This document shows, piece after piece, positions 13,463 through 52,429 of a DNA stretch of 64,000 bases. The notes below the pieces were generated by a model. That model saw only the letters and a program-made list of their open reading frames with translations, was not told where the DNA came from and did not search any database. This stretch comes from Ensifer aridi. GTDB taxonomy: Bacteria; Pseudomonadota; Alphaproteobacteria; Rhizobiales; Rhizobiaceae. The position numbers and the translations under genes were made by a program. Where the stretch lies: assembly GCF_002078505.1 (NCBI RefSeq), contig NZ_LUAV01000032.1:248001-312000 (forward strand). The letters run 5' to 3'. Every line of letters begins with the position of its first letter. Position 1 is the stretch's first letter.

Positions 13463-13723
13463 CGGTGCCTCCTATTCGGTCGCGGCTTGAAACCTCGGGC
13501 TCGCGCATTTGTTCCTTCACCGAATTCTCCGGCGAGACGAGGGGCCCCGCAACCCAGAGGAGGTGGCGGACTGGAACCATGGGGCGTCCAATCAGTTTCA
13601 GGTTCGACGCAGCAGGTTGATGCCGAGCACCGTATAGATCGTTGCGCCGGCCGGAACCGCTCGCGGCCGCGACCATGGGATCATAACGGAGCAGCTCCGC
13701 CGCTCAGAGGGTAGGGAGGAACG

Positions 13724-14311
13724 ATGGGGCCGTTGGCGATGCACATGGGCGTGCACATCCTGCTGATGAACCTCGTCGCGCCGCTGACGGCACTCGGAAC
13801 ATCGCGAATTCGGCAGGAGGGGCAGGAGGTCGCTGCATCCATGCTGTGGCTTGCGACCCTTGCGCAGCTCCTCGCCCTCTGGACCTGGCATGCACCGCCC
13901 CTCCTTAACCGGGCGCTCGAATTCCCTTCGGTCCATTTGCTGATGTATGGCAGCCTGTTTCTCACTGCTGTCCTGTTCTGGTGGACGGTCTTCCGCTTCC
14001 GTCGGGAGCGCTGCTGGCAGCCGATCGTTGCTCTCCTCATCACCAGCAAGCTTTATTGCTTGCTGGCCGTGCTTTTCGTCTTCGCGCCGAGAGCGCTTTA
14101 TCCGAACATCGCCCACGCCCATCCGAGCGACGGCGCTCCGGTTTTGAACGCAATCTTGGCTGACCAGCAGCTCGCGGGGCTCATCATGCTGGCCGCCTGC
14201 CCGGCAACTTACGTCCTGGCCGCTATCGCCATCGGCGCGCGATGGCTCTTTGCGATGGAAACCGGCAAGCCCCAGCCGGACGTCAACCCGGGTGAAGAAG
14301 CGTGGAGTTGA
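13724..14311 (+). CDS. CtaG-type cytochrome c oxidase assembly membrane protein
   Basis: This 195-residue polytopic protein has about five hydrophobic segments. The opening MGPLAMHMGVHILLMNLVAPL, then LWTWHAPPLL and HLLMYGSLFLTAVLFWW, are characteristic of the caa3_CtaG family, which supports assembly of heme-copper oxidases. It is shorter than many members, which begin with an extra TM segment. GGAGG lies 5 nt upstream of the ATG, and no better upstream start is visible. It is the first gene of the oxidase operon and overlaps the triheme cytochrome gene by 10 bases. Confidence 0.8.
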   Translation: MGPLAMHMGVHILLMNLVAPLTALGTSRIRQEGQEVAASMLWLATLAQLLALWTWHAPPLLNRALEFPSVHLLMYGSLFLTAVLFWWTVFRFRRERCWQPIVALLITSKLYCLLAVLFVFAPRALYPNIAHAHPSDGAPVLNAILADQQLAGLIMLAACPATYVLAAIAIGARWLFAMETGKPQPDVNPGEEAWS

Positions 14312-15429
14312 AGAAGCTGCACTGGACGACGGTTGCGGCGGTGCTCGGCATGGGTGCCGCGGGGCTCGTACTCGCCGGCACCATTTTCGTGTCGTCCGGC
14401 ATCTACAATGTCGCTGCCTCCAGCGGCCATTTTCGGATCACGACCTGGCTCCTCGCCATGGTCCGCGAGCGTTCGATCGACATGCGGAGCTTTCCGATCG
14501 AGGTTCCGCCGATCGACGATGATGGGATGATCCGCCTCGGCGCCGCCCATTACGAAGGCGGCTGCGTGCCCTGTCACGGCCGGCCGGGCGAGGAAATGAA
14601 CCCGATCGTGAGCGGCATGCTGCCCCCGCCGCCGAATTTGACCGAGGTCGGCAAGCGGCGCCCTCCGGAGGAAATCTTCTGGATCGTCATGCATGGCCTC
14701 AAATATACCGGGATGCCGGCATGGCCGAATACCGGGCGCGACGACGAGGTTTGGGCGGTCACGGCATTCCTCGCCACCCTTCCGGGCGCGGTAAGCGGTT
14801 ACCCGGACTTTGCGGGCCTCGCCCGGGGCGGCGGCGACAAGCACGAAGGGCTGGCGAACGGCCGCACCTTCACCCGTTGTGGCCGCTGTCATGAAAGCGA
14901 GGGCACAGGCACCAATGGCAATCGCATCCCCCGACTTGCGGGACTACCTGAAGCCTATCTGCTTCGCAGTCTGCGGGAATATGCCGAGCGAACCCGCGCG
15001 AGCGGCGCCATGGAGCCGGTCGCCGACCTCTTGGATGACGGCCGGATGCGGGAGCTCGCGGCGTACTATTCGGCGCTTCGGCCGGTTGCGCCCAAAACGA
15101 CCGTCGCGCCCGACCCGGAGCGGCTTCGGCGCGGAGAAGCCATCGCCATACGCGGTATTCCGCGACATGGGGTGCCGGCCTGCCTGACTTGTCATTCCGG
15201 GCGGCAGTCATCCTATTTTCCGACGCTCGCTGGCCAGCATGCCGCCTATATCGCCGAGCAATTGCGGCTCTGGCAGCGAGGAGGTCGCGTCGGCACGGCT
15301 TACGGAAGAATCATGGCGGTAGTCGCCGGGGCTCTGAGCGCCGAGCAGATCGAGGACGTCGCCGCCTATCTGGCGTCCCTGCCTCCGGGTGCTGCGCCTC
15401 CGGAACCGATGGCGGAGGTGAGCCGATGA
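14302..15429 (+). CDS. Membrane-anchored triheme cytochrome c
   Basis: The start is GTG at 14302, overlapping the end of the CtaG-like gene. The 375-residue product has one N-terminal TM anchor (about 10-34), then three c-type heme sites: CVPCH (88-92), CGRCH (193-197) and CLTCH (294-298). Met residues after each heme are possible sixth ligands (for example GMPAW at about 137). The first domain is of the mono-heme class I type; the second and third resemble the tandem c4/c553 type. It overlaps the subunit II gene by ATGA. The likely role is electron delivery from periplasmic dehydrogenases or a quinol-oxidising complex to the adjacent caa3 oxidase. Confidence 0.9.
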   Translation: MELKKLHWTTVAAVLGMGAAGLVLAGTIFVSSGIYNVAASSGHFRITTWLLAMVRERSIDMRSFPIEVPPIDDDGMIRLGAAHYEGGCVPCHGRPGEEMNPIVSGMLPPPPNLTEVGKRRPPEEIFWIVMHGLKYTGMPAWPNTGRDDEVWAVTAFLATLPGAVSGYPDFAGLARGGGDKHEGLANGRTFTRCGRCHESEGTGTNGNRIPRLAGLPEAYLLRSLREYAERTRASGAMEPVADLLDDGRMRELAAYYSALRPVAPKTTVAPDPERLRRGEAIAIRGIPRHGVPACLTCHSGRQSSYFPTLAGQHAAYIAEQLRLWQRGGRVGTAYGRIMAVVAGALSAEQIEDVAAYLASLPPGAAPPEPMAEVSR

Positions 15430-33091: not shown

Positions 33092-33796
33092 ATGACCGAT
33101 ACCGACAACAGTTCCATTCCAGAACGCAAGCGAGGCTCCGGCGTGAAGATGGTCTACGACCTTCTGCGCGACGAGATCCTCGATCTGGTCCTGCCTCCCG
33201 GCAGCCCGATCGACGAGGCGCAACTAGCCGAACGTTTCAAGATGTCGCGCACGCCGATCCGCGAGGCGCTGGTGCGGCTTGCGGGCGAGGGGCTGATCGA
33301 CACGCTGCCGAACCGATCGACCATGGTGTCGAATATCGATTTCATCAACATGAACACTTATTTCGACGCACTGGTGCTCATGTATCGAGTCACCACGCGG
33401 CTCGCGGCTCAACATCACCGCACTGAGGATCTGCAGGTGATCCGGGCCCGTCAGGCCGAGTTCGCCGCCGCGGTCCAGGCGCAGGATGCGCTGGCGATGA
33501 TCGCCACCAATGCGGCGCTGCACCTGGCGATCGCCGAAGCGGGCCGCAATTCCTATTTCACGGGCCTGTTCAAGCGGCTTCTCGACGAGGGTCGGCGGAT
33601 TCTCCGGCTCTATTACCAGTCCTATGACGACCGGTTGCCGCAGCGCTTCGTCGATGAGCACGAGGATATGATTGCCGCCATTGCGGCTCGCGATGCCGAA
33701 GAAGCGGATCGCCTGGCAAGGGTGCATGCCGAGCAGATCGTGCATCAGATTCAGATGCTTTTCTCCCGCGACAGGCGGCTGGATATCGCCCTGTGA
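33092..33796 (+). CDS. GntR-family (FCD) transcriptional regulator
   Basis: This 234-residue protein has an N-terminal winged HTH (about 15-80; MVYDLLRDEILDLVLPPG then LAERFKMSRTPIREALVRLAG in pieces) and the all-helical FCD effector domain (about 95-225) with the metal-binding His residues in NAALHLAIAEA, and in DEHEDMIAAI near the C-terminus. The operator palindrome overlaps its SD. Placed ahead of the DapA-family gene and a hydroxyproline-type pathway, it is probably the pathway repressor, comparable in position to HypR-type GntR regulators known in S. meliloti. The specific effector is inferred to be a hydroxyproline or a pathway imine. Confidence 0.9.
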   Translation: MTDTDNSSIPERKRGSGVKMVYDLLRDEILDLVLPPGSPIDEAQLAERFKMSRTPIREALVRLAGEGLIDTLPNRSTMVSNIDFINMNTYFDALVLMYRVTTRLAAQHHRTEDLQVIRARQAEFAAAVQAQDALAMIATNAALHLAIAEAGRNSYFTGLFKRLLDEGRRILRLYYQSYDDRLPQRFVDEHEDMIAAIAARDAEEADRLARVHAEQIVHQIQMLFSRDRRLDIAL

Positions 33797-33910: not shown

Positions 33911-34873
33911 ATGAAGGCCAAGATTTTCTCCGGCGTGATCCCCGCGCTGATGACCCCTTGCAAGGAAGACCGCAGCCCCGACTTCGATGCTCTTGTCCGC
34001 AAAGGCAAGGAGCTGATCGCCGACGGTATGTCGGCAGTCGTTTATTGCGGCTCCATGGGCGACTGGCCGCTCCTGACCGACGCGCAGCGCATGGAAGGAG
34101 TGGAGCGCCTGGTGAAGGCCGGCGTGCCGGTCATCGTCGGCACTGGCGCTATCAACAGCGCTTCAGCCGTCGCCCATGCGGCGCATGCCCACAAAGTCGG
34201 CGCTCAGGGCCTCATGGTGATTCCGCGGGTCTTGTCGCGCGGACCTTCCCTCATTGCGCAGAAGGCGCATTTCAAGGCGATCCTGTCGGCCGCGCCGGAT
34301 CTTCCGGCAGTGATCTACAACAGCCCCTACTATGGCTTCGCCACCCGCGCCGATCTGTTTTTCGCGCTGCGCGCCGAGCATCCGAACCTCGTAGGCTTCA
34401 AGGAATTCGGCGGCCCGGCCGACATGCGCTACGCGGCCGAGAACATTACGAGCCGTGACGACGGCGTGTCGCTAATGATCGGCGTCGACACCGCCGTCTT
34501 CCACGGCTTCGTCAACTGCGGCGCGACCGGCGCAATCACCGGCATCGGCAATGTGCTGCCGAAGGAGGTGATCCACCTCTGCAATCTGTCGCAGGCTGCC
34601 GCCCGCGGCGATGTCGATGCGCGCCAGCGCGCCCAGGAGCTGGAACAGGCCCTTGCCGTCCTCTCCTCCTTCGACGAGGGTCCGGACCTCGTTCTCTACT
34701 TCAAGCACATGATGGTGCTGAAGGGAGACAAGGAATACACGCTCCATTTCAACGAAACCGATGCGCTCACCGAAAGCCAGCGCGGCTATGTCGAGGCGCA
34801 GTTCAAGCTCTTCAACACCTGGTATGCTGAGTGGAGCAAGCTCCCCGGCGCCGTTGAGAAGTATAAGGCCTAA
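33911..34873 (+). CDS. DapA/NAL-family lyase, probable hydroxy-pyrroline-carboxylate deaminase
   Basis: This 320-residue TIM-barrel protein of the dihydrodipicolinate synthase superfamily has the Schiff-base Lys in LVGFKEFGGPADMRYA and the Tyr motif AVIYNSPYYGFATR; YCGSMGDWPLL replaces the usual GTTGE loop. The family includes lyases and deaminases; in hydroxyproline catabolism a member (HypD/LhpC type) converts 4-hydroxy-pyrroline-2-carboxylate to 2-oxoglutarate semialdehyde. Position in this cluster and the downstream semialdehyde-type dehydrogenase favour that role. It is about 20-25 residues longer than E. coli DapA. The SD CAGGAG is 6 nt upstream. Confidence 0.82.
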   Translation: MKAKIFSGVIPALMTPCKEDRSPDFDALVRKGKELIADGMSAVVYCGSMGDWPLLTDAQRMEGVERLVKAGVPVIVGTGAINSASAVAHAAHAHKVGAQGLMVIPRVLSRGPSLIAQKAHFKAILSAAPDLPAVIYNSPYYGFATRADLFFALRAEHPNLVGFKEFGGPADMRYAAENITSRDDGVSLMIGVDTAVFHGFVNCGATGAITGIGNVLPKEVIHLCNLSQAAARGDVDARQRAQELEQALAVLSSFDEGPDLVLYFKHMMVLKGDKEYTLHFNETDALTESQRGYVEAQFKLFNTWYAEWSKLPGAVEKYKA

Positions 34874-36744: not shown

Positions 36745-37782
36745 TTAAGCCACGGCGTCGAGCCCGAGCGCAAGCAGGCGGTCGAGCTGCTCGATTTCCG
36801 CGGCGGTCAAGGTGATGCCCTCCGCCTCCGACTTGGCGCGGGCGACGTAGCGGCGCTGCGAGGGCAGGCGGGCGCCCTGGCCGACGATAGCTTCGAACAA
36901 GACCTCCGCCCGGGCAAAGGGATTGCCGGGGCGGCCGGCGGCGAAGGCCTCGGGCGAGAAGGCGATGATGAGCTCGCCGTGGAAGGGCGCGAGCGTCGTG
37001 GTGCCGAGATAGGCGAGCACCTCGGGGCTGGTGAGGTCGCCGATCATGATGCCCGCCAGCAGCTCGATCATCGTGCCGATCGCCGAGCCCTTGTGTCCGC
37101 CGAAGGGCAGCATCGCGCCGGCGAGCGCGGCCTCGGGATCTGTCGTCGGATTGCCTTCAGCATCGATCGCCCAGCCTTCCGGCAACGGCTTGCCCGCCCG
37201 GCGGTGGAGCTCGATTTCGCCGCGCGCGGCGACGGAGGTCGCAAAGTCGAAGACATAGGGCGGCTTGCCAGGGCGCGGCCAGCCGAAGGCGAAGGGATTG
37301 GTGCCGAGCAGAGGCTTGTTGCCGCCGGTCGGCGCGACCGTCGCATAACTCGGGCACATGACCAGCGCGGCAAGACCTTCAGCCGTGAGCGCCTCCACCT
37401 CTGGCCAGAGAGCGGAAAAATGCGTGCAGTCGTTGATGACGAGCGCGGCGAGGCCGGATGAGCGGGCGCGCTCCGTGAGCTTCGGCAGAGCAAGCTCGAA
37501 GGCGGCGTTGGCAAAGCCGTCCGCGGCGTTCACCTTCACGATCGCCGAGCCTTCCTCAAGCGCGAGCTCCGGCACCGCATCCGGCTTCACCTTGCCTGCC
37601 TTCACGGTGCGCAGCGCGCCCTCGATGCGGTAAACGCCGTGCGATTTGCAGGCATCGCGCTCGCCCGCGACGATCACCCGGGCGAGCGCGCCTGCCTGGA
37701 TCACATTGAGCCCGGCCTTGCGGAAGATCGCCTCGACGCGCTCCTGAAGCGCGGTCGTTGTCAGGATCGTGGTCTCGCTCAT
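36745..37782 (-). CDS. Ldh2/malate-lactate dehydrogenase family, probable pyrroline-2-carboxylate reductase
   Basis: This 345-residue NAD(P)H-dependent enzyme belongs to the MdH/Ldh2 (YlbC/DpkA) family. Conserved features are SHGVYRI near residue 48, INDCTHFSALWPEVEALT, the nucleotide region GGNKPLLGTNPFAFGWPRPG and PFGGHKGSAIGTMIELLAG. I chose the ATG at 37782; the in-frame ATG at 37869 would add 29 residues across the operator. In clusters with aconitase X, such reductases convert pyrroline-2-carboxylate (the product of 3-hydroxyproline dehydration) to L-proline. This role is inferred from the neighbourhood and family; a ureidoglycolate or sulfolactate dehydrogenase is the alternative. It is divergent from the aldehyde dehydrogenase gene. 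Confidence 0.8.
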   Translation of the reverse strand: MSETTILTTTALQERVEAIFRKAGLNVIQAGALARVIVAGERDACKSHGVYRIEGALRTVKAGKVKPDAVPELALEEGSAIVKVNAADGFANAAFELALPKLTERARSSGLAALVINDCTHFSALWPEVEALTAEGLAALVMCPSYATVAPTGGNKPLLGTNPFAFGWPRPGKPPYVFDFATSVAARGEIELHRRAGKPLPEGWAIDAEGNPTTDPEAALAGAMLPFGGHKGSAIGTMIELLAGIMIGDLTSPEVLAYLGTTTLAPFHGELIIAFSPEAFAAGRPGNPFARAEVLFEAIVGQGARLPSQRRYVARAKSEAEGITLTAAEIEQLDRLLALGLDAVA

Positions 37783-37841
37783 CGTCGTCTCTCGTGGCTG
37801 GCCCGACTGGGGAGGCAGGCGGTTGATGTTCTGCATACGTA

Positions 37842-37925: not shown

Positions 37926-39443
37926 ATGGTCTTCACTCCCAAAGGAAAACACCTCGTCGCGGGCGAGTGGCTCGACGGCGCAGTCACCTTCGCTTCCGCC
38001 CCCGCGCATGGGCCGGTGCACCACTTCGCCGCCGGCACCGTGGAACTGGTGAATCGAGCCTGCGAGGCTGCCGAGGTTGCCTTCTGGAGCTATGGCTATT
38101 CGTCGCGCGCGTCCCGTGCGGCGTTCCTCCGCACCATCGCCGACGAGATCGAGGCGCGGGCCGAGGCGATCACCCAGATCGGCAGCCAGGAAACGGGCCT
38201 GCCGGAGGCGCGGCTAAACGGCGAGCGAGGGCGCACGACCGGGCAACTGCGGCTCTTTGCCGACCACATCGAGAAGGGCGATTATCTCGATCGCCGCTTC
38301 GACGCGGCGCTGCCGGACCGCCAGCCGGCACCCCGTCCGGAGATCCAGCTGGTCCAGCGGCCGATCGGCCCCGTCGCCGTCTTCGGCGCCTCGAATTTCC
38401 CGCTCGCCTTCTCGACCGCGGGCGGCGACACGGCCGCGGCGCTGGCAGCAGGTTGCCCGGTTGTGGTGAAGGGCCATTCGGCCCATCCCGGCACCGGCGA
38501 GATCGTGGCAGAGGCGATCGAGGCCGCCATTCGCAAGGCGGGCGTCCATCCTGGTGTCTTCTCGCTGATCCAGGGCGGCAGCCGCGAGGTCGGCCATGCA
38601 CTGGTCCAGCATCCGCGGATCAAGGCCGTGGGCTTCACCGGCTCGCTCGCCGGCGGGCGTGCGCTCTTCGATCTCTGCGCCGCGCGGCCGGAGCCGATCC
38701 CGTTCTTCGGCGAACTCGGTTCGGTGAACCCGATGTTCCTGCTGCCCGGTGCGCTGAAGGCGCGCGCCGAAGCGCTGGGGCAGGGTTGGGCCGGTTCGCT
38801 CACCATGGGCGCCGGACAGTTCTGCACCAATCCCGGCATTGCCGTGGTGATCGCAGGTGCCGATGCCGACCGCTTCACCGCTGCCGCAGTCGAAGCGCTC
38901 GGCAAGGTGGCGCCGCAGACCATGCTGACGGACGGCATCGCCAAGGCCTATCGCGACGGGCAGGCGCGGTTTGCCAGTCGCAATACGGTCAAGCCGCTGC
39001 TTGCGACCGAGTCCTCCGATCGCGCCGCCTCGCCCAACCTCTTCGAGACGACGGGCGAAGAGTTCCTGGCCGATCATGCGCTCGGCGAAGAGGTCTTCGG
39101 TCCGCTCGGCCTCGTCGTCCGCGTGGGTTCCGTCAGCGAGATGGAAGAGCTCGCGCGCGGGTTCCAAGGCCAGCTGACCGCGACGATCCACATGGACGCA
39201 GCCGATCTAGAAGCCGCACGGCGTCTTCGCCCGGTGCTGGAGCGCAAGGCCGGCCGCGTGCTCGTCAACGGCTTCCCTACGGGGGTAGAAGTCGTCGACT
39301 CGATGGTGCATGGCGGCCCCTATCCGGCCTCGACCAATTTCGGCGCAACCAGCGTCGGCACCATGTCGATCAGACGTTTCCTGCGTCCGGTGGCCTACCA
39401 GAACATGCCGGAGGAGCTGCTGCCGGAGGATTTCCTCGGCTGA
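37926..39443 (+). CDS. Aldehyde dehydrogenase, probable 2-oxoglutarate semialdehyde dehydrogenase
   Basis: This 505-residue protein of the ALDH superfamily has QRPIGPVAVFGASNFPLAFS at the Rossmann entry, VVKGHSAHPGTGE, KAVGFTGSLAGGRALFD, the catalytic Glu in FGELGSVNPMF and the nucleophile Cys in GAGQFCTNPGIAVV. The pattern (GELGSVNP, GQFCTNPG) is that of the KGSADH-III branch of ketoglutarate-semialdehyde dehydrogenases. It would oxidise 2-oxoglutarate semialdehyde, made by the DapA-family enzyme, to 2-oxoglutarate. The SD AAGGAA is 6 nt upstream. A strong hairpin terminator follows. Confidence 0.9.
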   Translation: MVFTPKGKHLVAGEWLDGAVTFASAPAHGPVHHFAAGTVELVNRACEAAEVAFWSYGYSSRASRAAFLRTIADEIEARAEAITQIGSQETGLPEARLNGERGRTTGQLRLFADHIEKGDYLDRRFDAALPDRQPAPRPEIQLVQRPIGPVAVFGASNFPLAFSTAGGDTAAALAAGCPVVVKGHSAHPGTGEIVAEAIEAAIRKAGVHPGVFSLIQGGSREVGHALVQHPRIKAVGFTGSLAGGRALFDLCAARPEPIPFFGELGSVNPMFLLPGALKARAEALGQGWAGSLTMGAGQFCTNPGIAVVIAGADADRFTAAAVEALGKVAPQTMLTDGIAKAYRDGQARFASRNTVKPLLATESSDRAASPNLFETTGEEFLADHALGEEVFGPLGLVVRVGSVSEMEELARGFQGQLTATIHMDAADLEAARRLRPVLERKAGRVLVNGFPTGVEVVDSMVHGGPYPASTNFGATSVGTMSIRRFLRPVAYQNMPEELLPEDFLG

Positions 39444-39547: not shown

Positions 39548-39626
39548 TTTTGAATTGATTTGTGCCCTCTGACGCGGAATAGTGCGCGCGCCGTCAAACC
39601 GACAGACCAACTCAGGGAGAGAGAAA

Positions 39627-40433
39627 ATGAAGACTTCGGTCCTCGCCTTCGGCCTCATCGCCGCCACCGCTCTGACGAGCCCCGCTCACGCCGACAAGCT
39701 CGATGACATCATCTCCTCGGGCACGCTGCGCTGCGCAGTGGTGCTCGACTTCCCGCCAATGGGCTCGCGCGACGAGAGCAACACTCCGATCGGCTTCGAC
39801 GTGGACTACTGCAACGATCTCGCCAAAGCGCTCGGCGTAACGGCCGAAATCGTCGAGACTCCTTTCCCCGAGCGCATTCCGGCGCTGATGTCCGGCCGCG
39901 TCGATGTGGGCGTCGCCTCCACCTCCGACACGCTGGAACGCGCCAAGACCGTCGGCATGACGGTGCCTTACTTCGCCTTCGAGATGGCGGTGACCGCCAA
40001 TGATAAGTCGGGCATCAAGTCCTTCGAGGACATGAAGGGTAAGGTCGTGGGAGCCACCGCCGGCACCTACGAGGCGATCGCGCTGGAAAACCAGGTCAAG
40101 GCCTGGGGTCCGGGAGAGTTCCGTCCCTATCAGACTCAGGCGGACGTGTTCCTTGCGCTGAGCCAGGGACAGATCGATGCCACCGTCTCCACCTCGACCG
40201 TGGCGCAGGCCAATGTGAAGACCGGCAAGTTCCCCGGGATCTCGGTGGTCGGCAAGGCGCCCTTCGACATCGATTACGTGGCTCTCTTCACCAATCGCGA
40301 GGAATACGGCCTCATCAACTACCTCAACCTGTTCATCAATCAGCAGGTCCGCACCGGCCGCTATGCCGAACTCTACGAGAAGTGGGTCGGCGGCGAGGCA
40401 CCGGTCCTGTCGGTGAACGGCGTCTATCGCTGA
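39627..40433 (+). CDS. ABC transporter substrate-binding protein (polar amino acid, SBP family 3)
   Basis: This 268-residue periplasmic protein has a signal peptide (1-22; cleavage near AHA). The SBP_bac_3 features are present: SSGTLRCAVVLDFPPMGSRDE split over residues 29-49, GFDVDYCNDLAKALGV, and GRVDVGVASTSDTLERAKTV. The SD GGGAGAGAG lies 4-12 nt upstream of the ATG at 39627. The fold binds polar or charged amino acids; in this cluster hydroxyproline or a related imino acid is likely. It starts an operon with two permeases and an ATPase. Confidence 0.92.
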   Translation: MKTSVLAFGLIAATALTSPAHADKLDDIISSGTLRCAVVLDFPPMGSRDESNTPIGFDVDYCNDLAKALGVTAEIVETPFPERIPALMSGRVDVGVASTSDTLERAKTVGMTVPYFAFEMAVTANDKSGIKSFEDMKGKVVGATAGTYEAIALENQVKAWGPGEFRPYQTQADVFLALSQGQIDATVSTSTVAQANVKTGKFPGISVVGKAPFDIDYVALFTNREEYGLINYLNLFINQQVRTGRYAELYEKWVGGEAPVLSVNGVYR

Positions 40434-40450
40434 TCTGACCTCCTTTGGGC

Positions 40451-40474
40451 GGTGCGGGACGATCGTCTCGCGCC
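40451..40474 (+). other. Stem-loop between binding-protein and permease genes
   Basis: GGTGCGGGAC (40451-40460) pairs with GTCTCGCGCC (40465-40474) across the loop GATC, with G-T wobbles. Hairpins at this position in ABC operons commonly stabilise the upstream binding-protein mRNA and limit read-through, giving more binding protein than permease. No T-tract follows. Confidence 0.55.
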
Positions 40475-40503
40475 GTCGCTCACTTCCGATAGGTGAGACG
40501 GCA

Positions 40504-41169
40504 ATGTTCAACTACACCTTCCACTGGAACCAGGCGCTGAAGGCATTGCCGCAGATGCTCGACGGCGCGCTGGTGACGCTCGAGATCGCGCTCGTCTCGA
40601 TGGCGATCGGTCTCGCCTGTGCGATCGGCTTGACGCTGTTCCGCCTCTCCGGAAACCGCCTCCTCGGCAGTTTCGCCTCGGCCTGGGTCGAGATCGCGCG
40701 AAACACGCCGGCGCTGTTCCAGATCTACATGGCCCATTTCGGGCTCGGCAATTTCGGGCTTCATCTGAGCCCCTATGCCGCTCTTCTAGTCGGGATCGCC
40801 TTCAATAATGCCGGCTATCTCGCCGAGAACTTCCGCGGTGCGTTGAAAGCCATTCCGGACACCCAGACCCGTGCCGGCCGCTCTCTCGGCATGACCTCGT
40901 TGCAGGCCTTCCGGCTGGTCGTCCTGCCGCAGATGCTGCGCGTCGCCTTTCTGCCTGCCAGCAACCAGATGGTTTGGGCGATCCTGATGACGTCGCTCGG
41001 CGTCACCGTCGGCATGAATGCCGACCTTGCCGGGGTTACGCAGGAGCTGAATGCCCGCTCCTTCCGCACCTTTGAATTCTTCGCGCTGGCCGCGGTGATC
41101 TATTACGTGATCGCCAAGGCCGTCACGCTGGCTGCCCGCGCCCTTGCCTGGCGCATGTTCCGCTACTGA
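40504..41169 (+). CDS. ABC transporter permease (polar amino acid type)
   Basis: This 221-residue inner-membrane protein has about five hydrophobic segments and the HisM/GlnP-type EAA loop (ENFRGALKAIPDTQTRAGRSLGMTSLQAF in pieces) that docks on the ATPase. The start MFNYTFHWNQAL is typical of the family. It pairs with the next permease to form a heterodimer channel. It lies 70 bp after the binding-protein gene, across a stem-loop. Confidence 0.93.
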   Translation: MFNYTFHWNQALKALPQMLDGALVTLEIALVSMAIGLACAIGLTLFRLSGNRLLGSFASAWVEIARNTPALFQIYMAHFGLGNFGLHLSPYAALLVGIAFNNAGYLAENFRGALKAIPDTQTRAGRSLGMTSLQAFRLVVLPQMLRVAFLPASNQMVWAILMTSLGVTVGMNADLAGVTQELNARSFRTFEFFALAAVIYYVIAKAVTLAARALAWRMFRY

Positions 41170-41180
41170 GGAGGTGAGAG

Positions 41181-41834
41181 ATGTTTGATACGACCCTCAC
41201 CTTGAACGATCTCGCCTTCCTGGCGCAGGGCGCGGCGATGACGCTCGCGGTCACCGCCGTCTCGGTCGCGGCCGGCACCGTGCTCGGCATTCTCTTCGGC
41301 GTGATCCGCGTCCAGATCGGACCCTATTGGTCCGCTCCACTGACCTTTGCACTCGACGTGTTCCGCTCGGTGCCGCTCCTGATCCAGCTCGTGCTCGGCA
41401 ATGCCTTCCAGTCCATCGCGAAGCTCGGATGGGGCCCGTTTGCCACCTCCTGCGTGGTGCTGTCGCTCTATACGGCGGCGTTTTGCGCGGAGATCGTCCG
41501 CGGCGGCATCTCTTCGGTGCCGGTGACCACGCGCCGCGCGGCCCGTTCGCTCGGGATGACCTGGTGGCAGGACATGCGCCATATCGTGGCACCACTCGCC
41601 ACGCGCGTTTCGCTTCCATCCTGGATCGGACTGACGCTCGGCGTCATGAAAGACTCCGCGCTGGTGCTCTGGCTCGGCCTCATCGAACTCCTGCGCGCCT
41701 CGCAGGTGCTCGTGACCCGTCTGCAGGAGCCATTATTCATCCTGCTGATCTGCGGCGCCATCTACTTCATCCTCAGCTTCCCCATCGCCCGGCTCGGCGG
41801 GTATCTCGAAAAACGGTGGTCCCCCAATGATTGA
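41181..41834 (+). CDS. ABC transporter permease (polar amino acid type)
   Basis: This 217-residue protein has five hydrophobic segments and the EAA motif (CAEIVRGGISSVPVTTRRAARSLGMT in pieces). GGAGG precedes the ATG by 6 nt. It overlaps the ATPase gene by 8 bases. Together with the upstream permease it forms the transmembrane part of a PAAT-family importer. Confidence 0.93.
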   Translation: MFDTTLTLNDLAFLAQGAAMTLAVTAVSVAAGTVLGILFGVIRVQIGPYWSAPLTFALDVFRSVPLLIQLVLGNAFQSIAKLGWGPFATSCVVLSLYTAAFCAEIVRGGISSVPVTTRRAARSLGMTWWQDMRHIVAPLATRVSLPSWIGLTLGVMKDSALVLWLGLIELLRASQVLVTRLQEPLFILLICGAIYFILSFPIARLGGYLEKRWSPND

Positions 41835-42549
41835 GATCGAAAACGTCCGCAAATCCTTCGGCCCGCTGGAGGTACTGAAAGGAATCGACCTCACCGTCGA
41901 GAAGGGCGAGGTGGTCACCATCATCGGGGGCTCCGGCTCGGGAAAATCGACGCTGCTTACCTGCATCAACGGCCTGGAGCCGATCGACTCCGGCCGGATC
42001 GTCATCGATGGGACCGATGTCCATGCCAAGGGCACCGATCTCAACAGGCTGCGCCGAAAGGTGGGCATCGTCTTTCAGCAGTGGAACGCCTTTCCGCACC
42101 TGACGGTGCTCGAGAACGTCATGCTTGCTCCGCGCAAGGTTCTGGGCCTGACGAAGGACAAGGCAGAGCAGATTGCGGTGAAGCAATTGACGCATGTCGG
42201 TCTCGGCGAGAAGCTCAAGGTCTATCCGGCCCGCATGTCGGGCGGCCAGCAGCAGCGCATGGCGATTGCACGAGCGCTTGCCATGTCGCCCGAATACATG
42301 CTGTTCGACGAGGTGACCTCGGCGCTCGATCCGATGCTGGTTGGCGAGGTGCTCGATACGCTGAAGATGCTGGCAGAAGAGGGTATGACGATGATCTGCG
42401 TTACCCATGAGATGGCTTTTGCCCGTGACGTGTCCGACCGTGTGGCCTTCTTCCATCAGGGGGTCATGGCCGAAATCGGCGCGCCGGACCAGATTTTCGG
42501 CGCGCCGCAGCACGCCGAGACGCAGAAGTTCCTGGCGAGCGTACGGTGA
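41827..42549 (+). CDS. ABC transporter ATP-binding protein (polar amino acid type)
   Basis: This 240-residue ATPase has Walker A GGSGSGKST, Q-loop VFQQWNAF, signature MSGGQQQRMAIARAL, Walker B YMLFDEVTSALDP and H-loop CVTHEMAFA. The sequence is of the GlnQ/HisP type used in PAAT importers. It overlaps the second permease by 8 bases and the DadA-type gene by one base, so the transporter and the oxidase are translated from the same message. Confidence 0.95.
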   Translation: MIEIENVRKSFGPLEVLKGIDLTVEKGEVVTIIGGSGSGKSTLLTCINGLEPIDSGRIVIDGTDVHAKGTDLNRLRRKVGIVFQQWNAFPHLTVLENVMLAPRKVLGLTKDKAEQIAVKQLTHVGLGEKLKVYPARMSGGQQQRMAIARALAMSPEYMLFDEVTSALDPMLVGEVLDTLKMLAEEGMTMICVTHEMAFARDVSDRVAFFHQGVMAEIGAPDQIFGAPQHAETQKFLASVR

Positions 42550-43790
42550 TGGCCGGGTCCGATGTCATCGTGATCGGCGCGGGGGTGGTAGGGCTTTCCG
42601 CGGCGATCGCTGCCCAGGCGCGAGGGCTTTCGGTCACGGTGCTGGACCGCGAGGGGCCCGCCGCGGGGGCGTCGGCGGGCAATGCCGGGGCCTTCGCCTT
42701 CACCGATATCCTTCCGCTCGCCTCGCCGGGCATCCTCAAGAAGGCGCCGAAATGGCTCGTCGATCCGCTGGGGCCGCTGACGGTACCGCCCGCCTATGCG
42801 CTCAAGATCGCGCCCTGGATGTTCCGCTTCTGGCGCGCTTGCTCGCCGAAGCGCGTTGCGCATTCGACCGCGGCGCAAACGGCGCTGATGGATCTGTCGA
42901 AGGCAGAACTGGAGCCTTTCCTGGATCAGACCGGCACGATGCCCATGCTGCGCAAGGAGGGCAACCTCCAGGTCTATGAGGGCGAGGGGGAGTTCAAAGC
43001 CTCGCTCGCCGGCTGGAAGGCGCGGGAGGAGCACAGGATCGAGTTCCATCACCTCGATGCTGCCGAGATGGCCGAAATCCAGCCGGGGCTTTCGGTCCGC
43101 TTCACCCATGGCACCTTCACTCCCGGCTGGTACTCCATTGCCGATCCGAAGCTTTACACGCTGGCGCTTGCGGACCACTTCCGCCTCAAGGGCGGTGTGA
43201 TCGAGCGTGCGGAGGTGCTTGCGCTCAAACCCGCCGAGGGCGTCGTCGAGGTGATGGCGACAGATGGCAGAGTGCGGCGCGCGGCGCAGGTGGTGCTTTC
43301 GGCGGGAGCCTTCTCGCACCGGATCGCCCGGTCGATCGGCGAGAGCATTCCGCTCGAAACCGAGCGCGGCTACAACACCACGCTTCCCTCCGATGCCTTC
43401 GATCTGCGCACGCAGGTCACCTTCGGCGGCCACGGCTTCGTCATCACTCGTCTTTCGAGCGGGATTCGCGTCGGCGGCGCGGTGGAGCTTGGGGGACTCG
43501 AGCTGCCGCCAAATTTTCGCCGCTCAGAGGCGATGCTCAAGAAAGCGCAGGCCTTCCTGCCCGGGCTGAAGCCGGAAGGCGGGGTGCAGTGGATGGGTTT
43601 CCGCCCATCGCTCCCCGACAGTCTGCCCGCCATCGGCCGCGCCCGCGCCACGTCGCGGGTGATCTACGCTTTCGGTCACGGCCATCTCGGGCTCACCCAA
43701 TCGGCGGGCACGGCGCGCATCGTCGCCGATCTCCTGACCGGCCAGACGCCCGCGATCGACATCGCTCCCTTCTCGCCGCAACGATTCTGA
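42549..43790 (+). CDS. DadA-family FAD-dependent D-amino acid (hydroxyproline) dehydrogenase
   Basis: This 413-residue flavoprotein has the N-terminal FAD-binding motif [18 protein letters not shown] and a conserved C-terminal flavin motif ([18 protein letters not shown]). The middle matches the D-amino-acid/glycine oxidase fold ([32 protein letters not shown] in pieces). In 4-hydroxyproline catabolism a homologue oxidises cis-4-hydroxy-D-proline to the hydroxy-imine that a DapA-family deaminase then uses. The ATG at 42549 overlaps the ATPase stop. Other D-amino acids remain possible substrates. Confidence 0.87.
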
Positions 43791-43803: not shown

Positions 43804-43872
43804 TTGGCAACGCGTCCTTTCTTCGCCACGACGGGAATGGTGCCGATCCCGCTCCCTGCGGCTTCGTCGTAA
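43804..43872 (+). other. Possible 22-codon leader ORF ahead of aconitase X
   Basis: A TTG with GGAGG 7 nt upstream opens a 22-codon frame ([20 protein letters not shown], then SS) that ends with TAA at 43870-43872; TAAAATG then places the aconitase X ATG one base after that stop. The long gene itself has no visible SD, so it may be translated by coupling to this leader. The leader could also be a relic of a frameshifted longer N-terminus. Confidence 0.4.
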
Positions 43873-43873
43873 A

Positions 43874-45565
43874 ATGAAGCAGCCGCCACCCGCTCGCAGC
43901 ATCCTCTCGGGCTCGGCCGAAGGCCCCGTCATCGTCACGGGGGAGGCGCTGAGCTTCTGGGGCGGGGTCGATCCCGCGACCGGTCGCGTCATCGACGTGC
44001 ACCACCCGCTCAATGGCGTCTGCCTCACCTGCTCCATTCTCATGATGCCGTCGAGCCGCGGCTCCTGCACCGGCTCCGGGGTGCTCCTCGATCTCGTGGT
44101 TTCGGGACGCGCTCCGGCCGCACTCGTGTTCTCGGAGCCCGAGGACGTGCTCACGCTGGGCGCGCTGGTCGCGTCCGAGATGTTCGGCAAACCGCTGCCG
44201 GTCCTGCGCCTCGCGCCGGAGATGTTTTCCGAGCTGGCGCGCGTCAAGAGGGCGCGCATCAGCAGCAGCGCAATAGAAGCCGAGGGCCTGGCGATCCCGG
44301 TCGTCCCGCCGGCGACCGCCACACTCGATCTTACCGACACTGACCGCGCCATGCTGGATGGAGAAAAGGGCGTCGCGGCGCAGCAGGCGATGCGCATCAT
44401 CTCAGCCATGGCGGCGCAGCAGGGGGCGCGGAGCCTCGTGGACGTCACCCAGGGCCATATCGACGGCTGTATCTACGCCAGCCCGGCGAACCTGACCTTT
44501 GCCGAGAGGATGGCCGAGCTGGGGGCGAAGGTCGCGGTGCCGACGACGATGAACGCCATTTCCGTTGATTACGCCAATTGGCAGGTCCAGGGCGTGCCGC
44601 CTTCGTTCGGCGACCCGGCAGCGCGGCTCGCCGATGCCTATGTCCGCATGGGGTGCCGCCCGACCTTCACCTGCTCGCCCTATCTGCTCGACAGCGCGCC
44701 TCAGGCAGGCGAGGCGATCGCCTGGGCGGAGTCCAATGCCGTTATCTTCGCCAACAGTGTGCTCGGTGCGCGCACGGCGAAGCACCCGGATTTCCTCGAT
44801 CTCTGCATTGCGCTCACCGGGCGCGCGCCGCTTTCCGGTGTCTATCTCGACGAACATCGTAAGGCCCTGCGCATCATCGAGGTGGAACTGCCCGAGCGCG
44901 TGGACGATGCCTTCTGGCCGTTGATTGGCTATCTCGCCGGCGGTGCGGCGCCGGACCGCATACCGCTCCTCAAGGGGCTTGCCGCGGCTAGGCCCTCGCG
45001 CGACGACCTCAAGGCGCTCTGCGCTGCCTTCGGCACGACCTCCGCCGCGCCGATGCTGCATGTGGCGGGTGTGACGCCCGAGGCCGACGGCACAGCGGCG
45101 GACGAGGCCGACCACGCGGCGATCACTCGCGCCGACATGGCCGCGGCCTGGTCGCTCCTGAACGAGGGGCCGGAGGAGGTGGAACTCGTTGCCATCGGCA
45201 GTCCCCACGCTTCCCTTGCCGAATGTCGGAAACTGGCAGAGGCGTTCGGCGGCCGCGAGCGGCACCCGGATGTCGCAGTGATCGTCACGGCCGGGCGTGA
45301 GGTCATCGAGGAGGCACGACGCGAGGGCACGCTCGCGCGGCTCGAAGCCAGCGGCGTGCAGGTGTTGCCGGACCTCTGCTGGTGCTCGATCTCTGAACCG
45401 GTTTTCCCGACACGGACCCGCGCCGTAATGACCAATTCCGGCAAATACGCCCATTACGGCCCGGGTCTATCCGGCCGGGCCGTGCGCTTCGGCAGCCTTG
45501 CCGATTGCGTCACGGCCGCCCTGAGGGGCCGCGCGCCGGCACGGCTGCCGGACTGGCTTTCCTGA
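43874..45565 (+). CDS. Aconitase X (single-chain), probable cis-3-hydroxy-L-proline dehydratase
   Basis: This is a 563-residue protein from the ATG at 43874. The DUF126-type small domain is at the N-terminus (about 8-130; [20 protein letters not shown] and the [10 protein letters not shown] loop). The DUF521/aconitase X large domain follows (about 150-560; [21 protein letters not shown] in pieces, [45 protein letters not shown] in pieces). Small-then-large fusion is the single-polypeptide (type I) form; others use two genes. Bacterial aconitase X enzymes have been shown to dehydrate cis-3-hydroxy-L-proline to pyrroline-2-carboxylate, which fits the Ldh2-type reductase in this locus. An in-frame ATG at 43790 adds 28 basic residues of no family character. 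Confidence 0.88.
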
Positions 45566-45577
45566 GAGGAGTACCCG

Positions 45578-46606
45578 ATGCGCAGCACGAAAACTATTCA
45601 TGTGATCTCCGCTCACGCCGAGGGCGAGGTGGGCGATGTGATCGTCGGCGGCGTCGCGCCTCCGCCGGGTGACACCATCTGGGAACAGAGCCGCTGGATC
45701 GCCCGCGACCAGACGCTGCGCAACTTCGTGCTGAACGAGCCGCGCGGCGGCGTCTTCCGCCATGTCAACCTCCTGGTGCCGCCGAAGCACCCGGAGGCCG
45801 ATGCCGCCTTCATCATCATGGAGCCGGAAGATACGCCGCCCATGTCGGGTTCGAACTCGATCTGCGTCTCCACGGTGCTGCTCGACAGCGGCATTCTGCC
45901 GATGACGGAGCCGGTGACGGAAATCACGCTAGAAGCCCCGGGCGGTCTCGTCCGCGTGCGGGCGGAATGCCGCAACGGCAAGGCCGAACGCATCTTCGTC
46001 CAGAACCTGCCGAGCTTTGCCGAGCGGCTGGATGCGAAGCTCGAGGTCGAGGGGCTTGGCACGCTCACCGTCGACACTGCCTATGGCGGTGACAGTTTCG
46101 TTATCGTGGATGCGGCGGCAATGGGCTTCGGCCTGAAGCCGGACGAGGCGCATGATATTGCCAGCCTCGGTGTCCGGATCACCAATGCGGCCAATGCACA
46201 GCTCGGTTTCCACCACCCGGAAAACCCCGAGTGGCGGCATTTCTCCTTCTGCCTTTTCGCAGGTCCCGTGGAGCGCACGGCGGAGGGTCTGCGCGCCGGC
46301 GCGGCCGTCGCGATCCAGCCGGGCAAGGTCGACCGCTCGCCGACCGGCACGGCGCTCTCGGCCCGCATGGCCGTTCTGCATGCCCGCGGTGAAATGAGAC
46401 CGGAGGACCGGCTGACGGCGGTTTCACTGATCGGCTCGACCTTCTCCGGCCGCATCGTCGGCACTATTCGGGTCGGAGACCGGCCGGGGATCCTGCCGGA
46501 AATCTCGGGCCGCGGCTGGATCACGGGCATTCATCAGCACATGCTCGACCCTTCCGATCCCTGGCCGGAGGGTTATCGGCTGACCGATACCTGGGGTGCG
46601 CGTTGA
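45578..46606 (+). CDS. Proline racemase-family protein with Ser90/Thr256 in place of catalytic cysteines
   Basis: This 342-residue cytosolic protein has the two-lobed proline racemase fold. The first catalytic site, normally MCGHG, reads MSGSNSIC, so the acid/base Cys is Ser90. The second, normally DRSPCGTG, reads [20 protein letters not shown], so Cys is Thr256. Known members of the family include proline racemases and 4-hydroxyproline 2-epimerases (Cys/Cys) and trans-3-hydroxy-L-proline dehydratases (Cys/Thr). The Ser/Thr pair fits neither group, so its reaction is uncertain: a dehydratase-like elimination or an altered epimerisation are both possible. The SD GAGAGGAG is 6 nt upstream. It is the last gene of the hydroxyproline-type operon. 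Confidence 0.87.
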
Positions 46607-48210: not shown

Positions 48211-48247
48211 GTGCTACAGCGACCTTTGCGCGTCCGATAAGACGCGC
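48211..48247. repeat. Palindromic repeat overlapping the selB 3' end (copy 2)
   Basis: The arm GTGCTACAGCGA (48211-48222) matches copy 1, and GCGCGTC-CGATAA-GACGCGC (48228-48247) forms the inner hairpin. The right-hand outer arm is missing. The selB stop codon (48214-48216) and its last residues, reading [10 protein letters not shown], are encoded inside the element, so the repeat has supplied the end of the protein. Confidence 0.8.
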
Positions 48248-50196
48248 GCCGCCGCAGTGACAGCATTCGACAAATTGCCGAAGAAATCCAGACGGTTCCG
48301 GTTGAGGCGGCGCAGGTCCCCGCGTCTGAGCGTGACGCTGTGACGATCGAAGAAGTCGAGGATCTGGATGGCGACCTTGCGGCCGTTTTCGAGGCGATCG
48401 CGAAACTGCATGGCGGTAAACCAGCCTTGTTCGGCAGCGGCGCTGATCTCGTCCATGACAGCCACCATCTCCGCGACCACGTCGCGCAGAAAGAAATGAT
48501 CGTGCGCCACCTCATGCACCCTGCCCATGCGGCTGCTGAGTTTCAGGAGCCGGCGCACCTCGCCTTCCGGAACCGCCAGCAGTCCGGCAATATCGCGCAC
48601 GCGTGGCGGGCGAAACCGTTCGCTCCCCCCGAGCAGGGGCTCGATGTCTTTCCAGAGCCGCTCGTCGGCCGGGGTCATGGTGACCCGATGCTCGGCGAGC
48701 CGGACCCACGCTCCATCGAGCACAGTCTCTCCCTCTCGGACGAGCGCATGCAAAGCTGCGCGGAATGCGGGCGCCGGTAGGCGAAATTCGAGCTGCGCGC
48801 GCAATCGTTCGACGCCCATGCCAAGCAGGTCCGGATTGTCCGCATGGAAAGATCGAAGCCGTGCGAGAATGTCACGCCGCAGCCTCTGCCAGCTCTCCAT
48901 GGACATGGCGAGCGTTGCGGCATCGGATTTAAGTTGCACGACATTCAAGGACTCTGACAGTGCCTCGGCTTCGCCCGCGGCCATTGCCCAGTCGCGCGCA
49001 AAGGCGCCGATGTCGACCAGATAGGGGGGAACGGCAAGCAGTGCCTCGATCGTCTGTCTCGGCTCGCTCGACGACAGTGCGGCGAGTTGGGCCATCCGCT
49101 CTTGAGTGCGGCGCTTGCGCGCGGGGGCGCGCAGGTCCAGAAAGCTGCCGCCGCCGATCGTGCGCCGGGCAGACGTGTCGCGAACGACATAGCGGTCTCC
49201 GGCTGCCGCCGCGATCGGCCGTTCCAGCACGAGCTGGACGAGCGTGCGCGCTCCTGGCGTGACCGGCTCGTCCGCCAAGAGGACGATGCGGGCTCCGACC
49301 TCCGCCGACGCATGATGGAGCCTGACCGGAAACCAATGGCCGATCGGTTTGGGCTCCGAACCGAGCACACGCAACGTCGCGTCAATTCGGCTGGTCGGCG
49401 CATGCAGGCTATGGTCGCAGACCACGTCGCCGCGGCCGATTGCCGTTTTCGTGATCCCCGGACCGACGAGGTTGAGTGCGCAGCGATCACCCGCGCGGCC
49501 AATCTCACTCGGCCTGTTCTGCGCATGGATCGATCGCACGCGCGCCTCAAGGCCCGAAGGGCTGATGGTGAGCCGGTCCTCTACCGACACTTGTCCCGAA
49601 AGAACGGTTCCGGTGACCACTGTGCCCGCGCCCTGAATGGTGAATGAGCGATCGACGGCAAGCCGGAATCGCCCGCTTGTCTGCCGCCGCTTGAGATTGT
49701 GCGCGGCGGCGACGATTTCGTCGCGCAGCAGCGCCACGCCGCTGCCCGACACGGTCGAAACCGGGATCATGATTGCCTCGGCAAGTGCCGTGCCCGAAAG
49801 CGCGTCCCGCATCGCCTTTTCGACTTCCGCAAGGCGGCCGTCCGTCACGAGATCGGCTTTGGTGATGGCGACGACCCCTTGTTCGGTGCCGAGTAGATCG
49901 ACGATCGCCAGATGCTCTCGCGTCTGCGGCATGACGCCGTCATCGGCCGCGACAACGAGCAGAACGAAATCGATGCCGCTGGCGCCCGCCAGCATGGTGT
50001 GGATGAACTTCTCGTGGCCGGGGACGTCGACGAAACCGATCGTCTCCAGGCCCTCGACCGGCATATAGGCAAAGCCGAGATCGATCGATATGCCGCGATC
50101 CTTCTCCTCCTTCAGGCGATCGGTGTCGACGCCGGTCAGCGCCCGCACGAGCGACGTCTTGCCGTGATCGATATGGCCGGCGGTCCCGACGATCAC
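48214..50196 (-). CDS. selB: Selenocysteine-specific elongation factor SelB
   Basis: This is a 660-residue protein with a GTG start at 50196, overlapping the Sel1-gene stop (GTGA); AGGAGG lies just upstream. The GTPase domain shows G1 [20 protein letters not shown]3 [13 protein letters not shown] and G4 TKAD. EF-Tu-like domains II and III follow, then a long C-terminal tail of winged helices (about 400-655) for SECIS RNA binding. This protein is about 45 residues longer than the E. coli factor. The C-terminus is derived from a palindromic repeat. SelB delivers Sec-tRNA to the UGA codon of fdoG. Confidence 0.95.
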
Positions 50197-51020
50197 CTGC
50201 GATCCTCCTCCTTTGCGCGCTGAAGCGGCACCGATGTTTCGGTGAGCGGAAGCGCGGCGCGGCGCTCGGCCTCCTGCAACTGCTCGGCATCGAGTGTCGC
50301 GCGCACGACGTCGAAGAATGGCGCGGCCAGCGCGCTGCCGCCTCGACGCGCCCTTATCAGCCAGGCGAAGGCTTCGACCGGATCGCGCGCGACGCCACTT
50401 CCGAGATGATAGGCCGCACCGAGCATCGCCTGTCCGTCAGCGTCGCCGGCTCGCGCGCCGCGGCCCCACCAGTAGGCCGCCTCGACCGGATCGCGCGTGA
50501 CCCCGATAGCATTGTGGTAGAGCATCCCGAGCCGCGTCATCGACGAGGCGGAGCCGTTCTTCGCGGCGGCGAGCGCCCAGCGGCGCGCTTCCGCGAAATC
50601 GGGTTCGATGAGATCGCCCTCCAGGAGCATCCAGCTCAGCATGTCCTGAGCTTCGGCGTCGTTCTGTTCTGCGGCCTGGTGATAAAGCGCGGCCGCCCTT
50701 GGATAGTCCGGCGCTATTCCCTCTCCCCTGAGGAGAAGCGAGGCGAGGTTGCGCTGACCGACGGGATCGCCGGCCTCGGCGGAAAGGCCCAGCCAATGGT
50801 AGGCAAGATCGGTATCTCGGGCGACGCCCAACCCTCCCGCAAAGCAAGCGCCGATATTGTTCTGGGCCCTTGCATTTCCCGCCCGGGCGAGGGGCTCCCA
50901 TACGGAAAGAGCGGTTTCGTAGTCGCCGTCGCGGGCGGCTGCGAGCGCCTTTGCCATGGCCGCCTCAGGGGATGCATCGCCCTCGCCCGGTCTTTGCAGC
51001 AAGCGGCTGAGAAGGCTCAC
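50193..51020 (-). CDS. Sel1-repeat protein coupled between selA and selB
   Basis: This 275-residue protein has at least five Sel1-like (TPR-type) repeats in residues 30-235, with the typical glycine spacing ([108 protein letters not shown], in pieces). No signal peptide is visible. The GTG start at 51020 overlaps the selA stop, and its stop overlaps the selB start, so the three genes are tightly coupled. Sel1 repeats form protein-interaction solenoids; a scaffolding or chaperone role in selenoprotein synthesis or formate dehydrogenase assembly is inferred from position only. Confidence 0.9.
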
Positions 51021-52429
51021 GACGAGGATCCTCCAGCCGATGGACCGAGACGCGCGAGATTGGCGATGAAGCCTTCCTCATCCTCGAGGCAACGCAAATC
51101 GAGCACAAGCGATCCGTGTTCGATGCGGCCGATGACTGGCATCGGCAGGCTTCTGAGCGCCGCCGCCAATTCGGCAAGCATGCGACCGCTGCCGGAAGGT
51201 GGCGCGAGCGCCAGTCCGGCGCTCGGCACGGTGGCGAGCGGCAAGGCGCCTGAGCCGATCTGGCTGCCGCAGTCGATCACCGAAACGTCGAATGCGCCGT
51301 CCACCGCCCGCTCCACCACGGAAGCCAGCTGCTCGGCCTGCCGACGGATGTCGGCCTGCGGACGGGCGAGCAGACGCATCGTCGGCAGGCGTTCGCTCAG
51401 GCGGTCCGGGTCGCGATAGAGCCTGAGCGTTGCCGCGAGCGCCGCAAGGCGGATCTTGTCGACGCGCAGCGCACGCTTCATCGGATTCCTGTTGATCCTG
51501 TCGAGAAGGTCGCCACGGCCGACGATAAAGCCGGCCTGAGGTCCGCCAAGCAGCTTGTCGCCGGAAAAGGTGACGATATCGGCGCCGTCGGCGATCGCTT
51601 CGGCGACGGTCGGCTCATGCGCGAGCCCGAAGCGGTCGAGATCGGTAAGCGTACCCGAACCGAGATCGTTGACGAGCGGCAGCCCGTGTTCATGGGCGAT
51701 TGCCGCGAGCTCGCGTGCCCCGACCTCCTTGGTGAAGCCTTCGATGCGATAGTTGGAGGTATGGACCTTCAAGATAAGGCCGGTATCGGGGCCGATAGCA
51801 TCCCGGTAATCCCGGGCATGGGTGCGGTTCGTGGTACCGACCTCGACGAGGCGGACGCCGGAGCGCAGCATGATATCCGGCATGCGGAATGCTCCGCCGA
51901 TTTCAATGAGCTCGCCACGCGAGACGATCGCTTGCCTGCCGGCCGACAGACTGTTCAATGTCAGCATGACGGCTGCAGCATTGTTGTTGACGACGGTTGC
52001 ATCCTCAGCGCCGGTCAGCTCCACGATGAGCGCCCGCAGGTGGTCGTCCCTTTCGCCGCGTTTGCCGCTCTCGAGGTCGAATTCGAGCGCCACCGCCTCG
52101 CGCATCGCCTCCGTCGCGGCATCGATCGCCGCTTCCGCCAGCAAGGCGCGACCGAGATTGGTGTGGAGCACGGTTCCCGTCAGATTGAACAGGGGGCGGA
52201 GTGACGATCGGTCATTTGCCTCGAGTGCCGCGATGGCGGCTATTGCGATCGCCTCCAAGGAGGGGACTTCTGCGCCGTCGCGCACCGCATTCCGGATCGT
52301 AGTCAGCACGCGCCGCAGGGCCTCGGCAACAGCCGGTCGCCCGAAACATTCGATCGCCTCGACGGCAGCGGCCGATCGCAGCAGCTCGTCCACCGACGGG
52401 ATGTCACGCAACCTGATATTGGCGTCCAT
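51017..52429 (-). CDS. selA: L-seryl-tRNA(Sec) selenium transferase
   Basis: This 470-residue PLP enzyme converts Ser-tRNA-Sec to Sec-tRNA-Sec using selenophosphate. Family features are clear: [21 protein letters not shown] near residue 80, [29 protein letters not shown], the PLP Lys in [21 protein letters not shown], and [20 protein letters not shown]. The SD AGGAG is 7 nt before the ATG. It is downstream of fdhE by 36 bp and coupled to the Sel1-repeat gene, inside the fdo operon. Confidence 0.96.

Follow-up and report, generated by a model that had tools for sequence, protein, structure and literature searches.

What does a proline racemase homologue do once both of its canonical cysteines have been replaced? 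This question is raised by an open reading frame in a 64,000-nucleotide stretch of the Ensifer aridi genome (contig NZ_LUAV01000032.1, positions 248,001 to 312,000), to which we refer as the window:

45578..46606, plus strand: proline-racemase-family open reading frame of 342 amino acids, with an ATG start and the stop codon within the coordinates

The product matched the complete Pfam profile PF05544 Pro_racemase (positions 1-325 of 325; 440.3 bits against a cut-off of 27). As an earlier note on this DNA had read it, the protein carries a Ser/Thr pair: residue 90 is serine, since the motif MSGSN begins at residue 89, and residue 256 is threonine, since DRSPTGT begins at residue 252. The same note had judged decay unlikely, had held that no Ser/Thr member of the family was characterised and had suggested that the protein may catalyse a distinct dehydration or epimerisation.

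The Ser/Thr pair was found in all 82 other loci encoding a protein at least 80% identical to the window protein, namely the best 80 of 573 relatives (genome loci) and two S. meliloti plasmid records, in a survey that omitted matches both below 40% identity and shorter than 300 residues; the pair, whose conservation among homologues the earlier note had left as a question, is conserved at this level. Comparison of the window gene with its S. meliloti 1021 orthologue gave dN = 0.031 and dS = 0.570 (dN/dS ~0.055), with 108 of the 129 differences at third codon positions. Replacement of both canonical cysteines could be taken as the mark of a decaying, inactive paralogue. We rejected this explanation, which has a negligible probability, given the low dN/dS and the 82/82 conservation, and the conserved position of the gene in its cluster also argues against it. 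The Ser/Thr gene is real and under constraint, reflecting neither chance nor decay, and on this point the earlier judgement stands.

The window protein passed the NCBIfam equivalog model for trans-3-hydroxyproline dehydratase (NF047722; 638.4 bits, cut-off 550). It failed the proline racemase equivalog NF010576 (234.3 of 556 bits), its pair being Ser/Thr and not Cys/Cys, as well as the 4-hydroxyproline 2-epimerase equivalogs NF010578 (202.2 of 376 bits), NF052296 (130.4 of 450) and NF010577 (67 of 442), and with Ser/Thr it lacks the two acid/base residues of these epimerases (Cys/Cys or Ser/Cys). The other trans-3-hydroxyproline dehydratase model, NF045511, which we assume to represent the Cys/Thr type I dehydratases, was also failed (201.7 of 540 bits), residue 90 being serine. 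The best solved relatives were 4K8L, 1TM0 and 4K7G, the last of which aligned without gaps over 341 residues at 67% identity and shares Ser90, Asn93 and Thr256 under identical numbering. The protein of this structure, B9K4G4 (cluster 3), was found by NMR to dehydrate trans-3-hydroxyproline (Zhao et al. 2014, PMC4113996), and that paper describes an active-site structure in which Ser90 is catalytic and the orientation of Thr256 is non-catalytic. A single sentence of the paper attaches the name B9K4G4 to a Ser/Cys epimerase, contrary to its legend and other passages; following these, together with the Ser/Thr sequence of 4K7G, we take B9K4G4 to be the Ser/Thr dehydratase. In addition, Ser-Thr members are annotated as T3LHypD type II in Watanabe et al. 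2015 (PMC4364671), while the portion of the review PMC8142540 that was considered mentions only a Cys-to-Thr change.

The Ser/Thr pair is already known, and the window protein is ordinary, since both its enzyme type and its gene cluster have been described before. We infer with high confidence, from its sequence, that it is the known Ser/Thr-type trans-3-hydroxyproline dehydratase and would have that activity. Because Ser/Thr members have been characterised, the expectation of a distinct reaction falls, and so does the premise that none of them had been studied; published activity for such members, which the earlier note had itself named as evidence against its proposal, is given in PMC4113996 and PMC4364671. 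On the same grounds we rejected a new Ser/Thr enzyme class.

Known relatives bracket the protein on several sides. Like the Cys/Thr trans-3-hydroxy-L-proline dehydratases of type I, it has threonine at the second position and would catalyse the same reaction, whereas the base is cysteine in type I and serine here. Four of the ligand-binding sites are described as completely different between type I and the Ser-Thr type (PMC4364671). B9JQV3 (PDB 4LB0, cluster 9) belongs to the same superfamily and shares serine at the first position, but has cysteine at the second and is a 4-hydroxyproline 2-epimerase; its nearest kin in the E. aridi genome are two paralogues on C2 and C22. A further comparison is the S. 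meliloti 1021 orthologue (pSymB 275434-276459), with 94% identity, the same gene order and an adjoining aconitase X gene. We take Q92WR9 and Q92WS1 to be S. meliloti proteins, and Q92WR9 to be this orthologue. Both are listed as characterised in PMC4113996, Table 3 of which gives slow growth ('+') of S. meliloti 1021 on trans-3-hydroxyproline.

The target gene ends a cluster in the order GntR regulator, DHDPS family, Ldh2 family (on the opposite strand), aldehyde dehydrogenase, ABC transporter, FAD enzyme, aconitase X and the target gene itself. The hyp names (hypO and so on) and roles applied below are those that we presume from hydroxyproline catabolism in S. meliloti:

33092..33796, plus strand: GntR/FCD-family regulator, HypR type (Pfam GntR and FCD, synteny)
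33911..34873, plus strand: DHDPS-family gene, HypD type (Pfam DHDPS, synteny; presumed function)
36745..37794, minus strand: putative Ldh2/MLD2-family delta1-pyrroline-2-carboxylate reductase, HypS type (Pfam Ldh_2)
37926..39443, plus strand: aldehyde dehydrogenase, probably alpha-ketoglutarate semialdehyde dehydrogenase, HypH type (Pfam Aldedh, synteny; presumed exact function)
39627..42549, plus strand: ABC transporter, probably for hydroxyproline, HypMNPQ type, with binding protein, two permeases and ATPase (open reading frames, synteny with CP090105)
42546..43790, plus strand: FAD-dependent D-amino acid or cis-4-hydroxy-D-proline dehydrogenase, HypO type (Pfam DAO, synteny with S. meliloti; presumed substrate)
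43804..43877, plus strand: probable hypRE deletion scar, its head at 43804 weaker than its tail
43874..45565, plus strand: aconitase X, AcnX (Pfam AcnX and AcnX_swivel_put; NF051439 953.9 bits, cut-off 700)

The transporter comprises open reading frames at 39582-40433 (with the inner ATG at 39627 taken as the start), 40504-41169, 41181-41834 and 41827-42549. No NCBIfam cut-off was passed by the aldehyde dehydrogenase among its 25 best matches listed, and no NCBIfam equivalog by the Ldh2-family gene. The start codon of aconitase X was set at 43874 by choice, and 12 bases separate the end of that gene from the target gene. Elsewhere in the window, minus-strand open reading frames at 48214-50196 and 51017-52429 read to us like SelB and SelA, the selenocysteine translation factor and Sec synthase.

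When primers from PMC4113996 were mapped on nine Agrobacterium-type loci, allowing up to two mismatches, those for Atu4684, a gene studied in that paper, matched the orthologue of the target gene in eight loci. Primers for Atu4675 and Atu4676 likewise matched the DHDPS-family and Ldh2-family orthologues in eight of the nine loci each, and primers for Atu4682 matched the FAD gene orthologue in seven; at one locus, L031, none of the four sets matched. According to PMC4113996, the Atu4676 product converts delta1-pyrroline-2-carboxylate to L-proline, and PMC5144071 reports that P. aeruginosa AcnX dehydrates cis-3-hydroxyproline to delta1-pyrroline-2-carboxylate. Given these two reactions, two dehydratases and a reductase can form a single route from both 3-hydroxyproline isomers to proline. 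The earlier view that the gene closes a hydroxyproline cluster and has an activity matched to aconitase X and the Ldh2-type reductase agrees with these findings. For the cis isomer the picture is not clean: PMC5144071 states that bacteria with an aconitase X gene can use cis-3-hydroxy-L-proline, in contrast to Table 3 of PMC4113996, which gives no growth of S. meliloti 1021 or P. aeruginosa PAO1 on this compound, and S. meliloti 1021 has an aconitase X gene despite this lack of growth.

We then consider how tightly the target gene is linked to aconitase X. Aconitase X lay directly upstream in 64 of the 80 close orthologues (the best 80 of 573 relatives) and elsewhere within the examined stretch in one; it was not found within that stretch in the remaining 15, three of which had less than 3.5 kb upstream. 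At 50-79% identity it was seen in none of 40 loci, whose flanks were mostly ~6 kb; these loci came from searching 297 genomes of the order, at least 147 of which had a match at E 1e-20. Constant linkage, with the Ser/Thr gene always beside aconitase X, a point that the earlier note had proposed to check, was rejected. The 64/80 association among close orthologues does fit an unreported reaction, a distinct dehydration or epimerisation suited to aconitase X as the earlier note proposed, and so does residue 259, which is alanine in the AcnX-linked clade and, together with residue 260, sets that clade apart from 4K7G. Near the active-site motif, the window protein and its clade have Ala259-Leu260, unlike the Gly-Cys of 4K7G, a difference that also tells against a simple analogy with B9K4G4. 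However, the published Ser/Thr activity fits without such a reaction, and because AcnX converts cis-3-hydroxyproline to delta1-pyrroline-2-carboxylate (PMC5144071), a trans-3 dehydratase completes the set, leaving a distinct reaction very improbable.

A further rival arises from what the cluster has lost. In S. meliloti the genes for the FAD enzyme and for aconitase X flank a Cys/Cys 4-hydroxyproline epimerase gene, hypRE, whereas comparison of neighbourhoods with a HypRE query found no intact hypRE in the window cluster. Positions 43860-43877 read GFVVK-stop, the C-terminal codons of HypRE, and since this match spans 18 bases we regard 43804-43877 as a probable deletion scar. At another locus, L005, a clear internal deletion has kept 37 N-terminal hypRE codons and the tail. 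With hypRE missing while HypO-, HypD- and HypH-type genes are still present, the Ser/Thr protein could be a promiscuous or mainly 4-hydroxyproline 2-epimerase that substitutes for the deleted gene. Cluster 3 is indeed described in PMC4113996 as functionally heterogeneous, with some members promiscuous for 4-hydroxyproline epimerase and trans-3-hydroxyproline dehydratase activity and one, D0B556, that epimerised 3-hydroxyproline. In contrast, the 4-hydroxyproline epimerase equivalogs were far below cut-off, and of the 74 close loci with at least 3.5 kb upstream, 40 hold both hypRE and the Ser/Thr gene (counting a 37-codon fragment at L005 and a match in two pieces at L051), so the Ser/Thr gene is not merely a substitute for hypRE.

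The genome also offers a better candidate. It encodes three proline-racemase-family members, the window Ser/Thr protein and Ser/Cys proteins on C2 and C22. The C2 paralogue (L161:9878-10912) has 4Q2H and 4LB0 as its closest PDB matches, the latter being the A. vitis 4-hydroxyproline epimerase solved with trans-4-hydroxyproline (PMC4113996), and probably serves as this genome's functional 4-hydroxyproline epimerase. The close loci led to 50 genomes, which are of unstated completeness and, being mostly Rhizobium and Agrobacterium, non-independent. Each of the 20 that lack an intact hypRE orthologue carries a C2-type Ser/Cys gene (75-97% identity), compared with 3 of the remaining 30, two of these 30 having hypRE on another contig. 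Some of the 20 genomes speak against a clean replacement, two also having a Cys/Cys gene with 59% identity to HypRE (L188, L197) and one a Cys/Cys gene at 33% (L194). The epimerase step has likely passed to the Ser/Cys paralogue and not to the Ser/Thr enzyme, whose role as the hypRE replacement we rejected as the poorer fit; that it acts mainly or promiscuously as an epimerase is improbable.

Several other features of these paralogues were observed. Near the C2 Ser/Cys gene, on the other strand, lies a putA gene (proline dehydrogenase/aldehyde dehydrogenase; L161:4546-8538). On C22, L162:2927-11995 holds a second cluster resembling a hydroxyproline operon, with an ABC ATPase, a DHDPS-family gene, an FAD enzyme, short-chain dehydrogenases, an aldehyde dehydrogenase and the Ser/Cys proline-racemase homologue; a TIR-domain protein is encoded further downstream (13007-15364). 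Paralogues with a Cys/Gly pair, an active site more unusual than Ser/Thr, occur in L189, L190, L191, L192, L193, L198, L199 and L200, where DRSPGGTG replaces DRSPCGTG and, in all but one of these eight, MCGAGT replaces MCGHGT; the stretches read (329-331 residues) contain no stops. Two more paralogues in the genome of L019 (L195, L196) have a Cys/Ser pair.

In the wider subfamily the second position is less constant. Ser/Thr was found in 33 of 37 sequences at 65-80% identity, 11 of 12 at 58-65% and 7 of 13 at 45-58%, with Ser/Cys in the other 4, 1 and 6; for these counts, matches shorter than 300 residues and copies of own-genome genes were excluded, and 214 matches gave 203 different sequences. 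A quick 91-row tree, which has SH-aLRT support only and several long branches, requires at least six changes at residue 256, against two at residue 259 and one at residue 90. Its rows include about one quarter of those at 80% identity or more and three Cys/Cys rows; rows with a stop were excluded, as was one Ser/Thr row below 35% identity, an artefact that ran past a stop codon and on into the neighbouring gene. Across the wider Ser90 subfamily, Thr and Cys have replaced each other repeatedly at position 256. It is a doubtful but conceivable reading that residue 256 is a natural switch between one-base dehydratases and two-base epimerases, and that the AcnX-linked Ala259 clade, window protein included, has shifted in specificity. 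Equally tentative, as part of the same reading, is that this shift would be, for example, towards a second 3-hydroxylated proline or towards back-up epimerisation after the deletion of hypRE.

For the trans-3-hydroxyproline dehydratase that we favour, a mechanism can be proposed. Ser90, held by Asn93, would take the alpha proton and the 3-hydroxyl would depart from the same face (syn elimination), after which the enamine would tautomerise to delta1-pyrroline-2-carboxylate. Thr256 would not serve as a second acid/base, so the intermediate would not be reprotonated on the opposite face and dehydration would result instead of epimerisation; Thr256 is presumably what blocks the latter. Aconitase X, encoded by the adjoining gene, would dehydrate cis-3-hydroxyproline, and the product shared by both dehydratases would be turned into L-proline by the Ldh2-type reductase.

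Taken together, our results indicate that the double cysteine loss seen here marks a dehydratase type that has already been described and is not a sign of new chemistry. In addition, the local pathway can be read as a set of two dehydratases and one reductase able to bring both 3-hydroxyproline isomers to proline, and the loss of hypRE, accompanied by a Ser/Cys paralogue in all 20 sampled genomes that lack it, is a neat example of a probable gene replacement.
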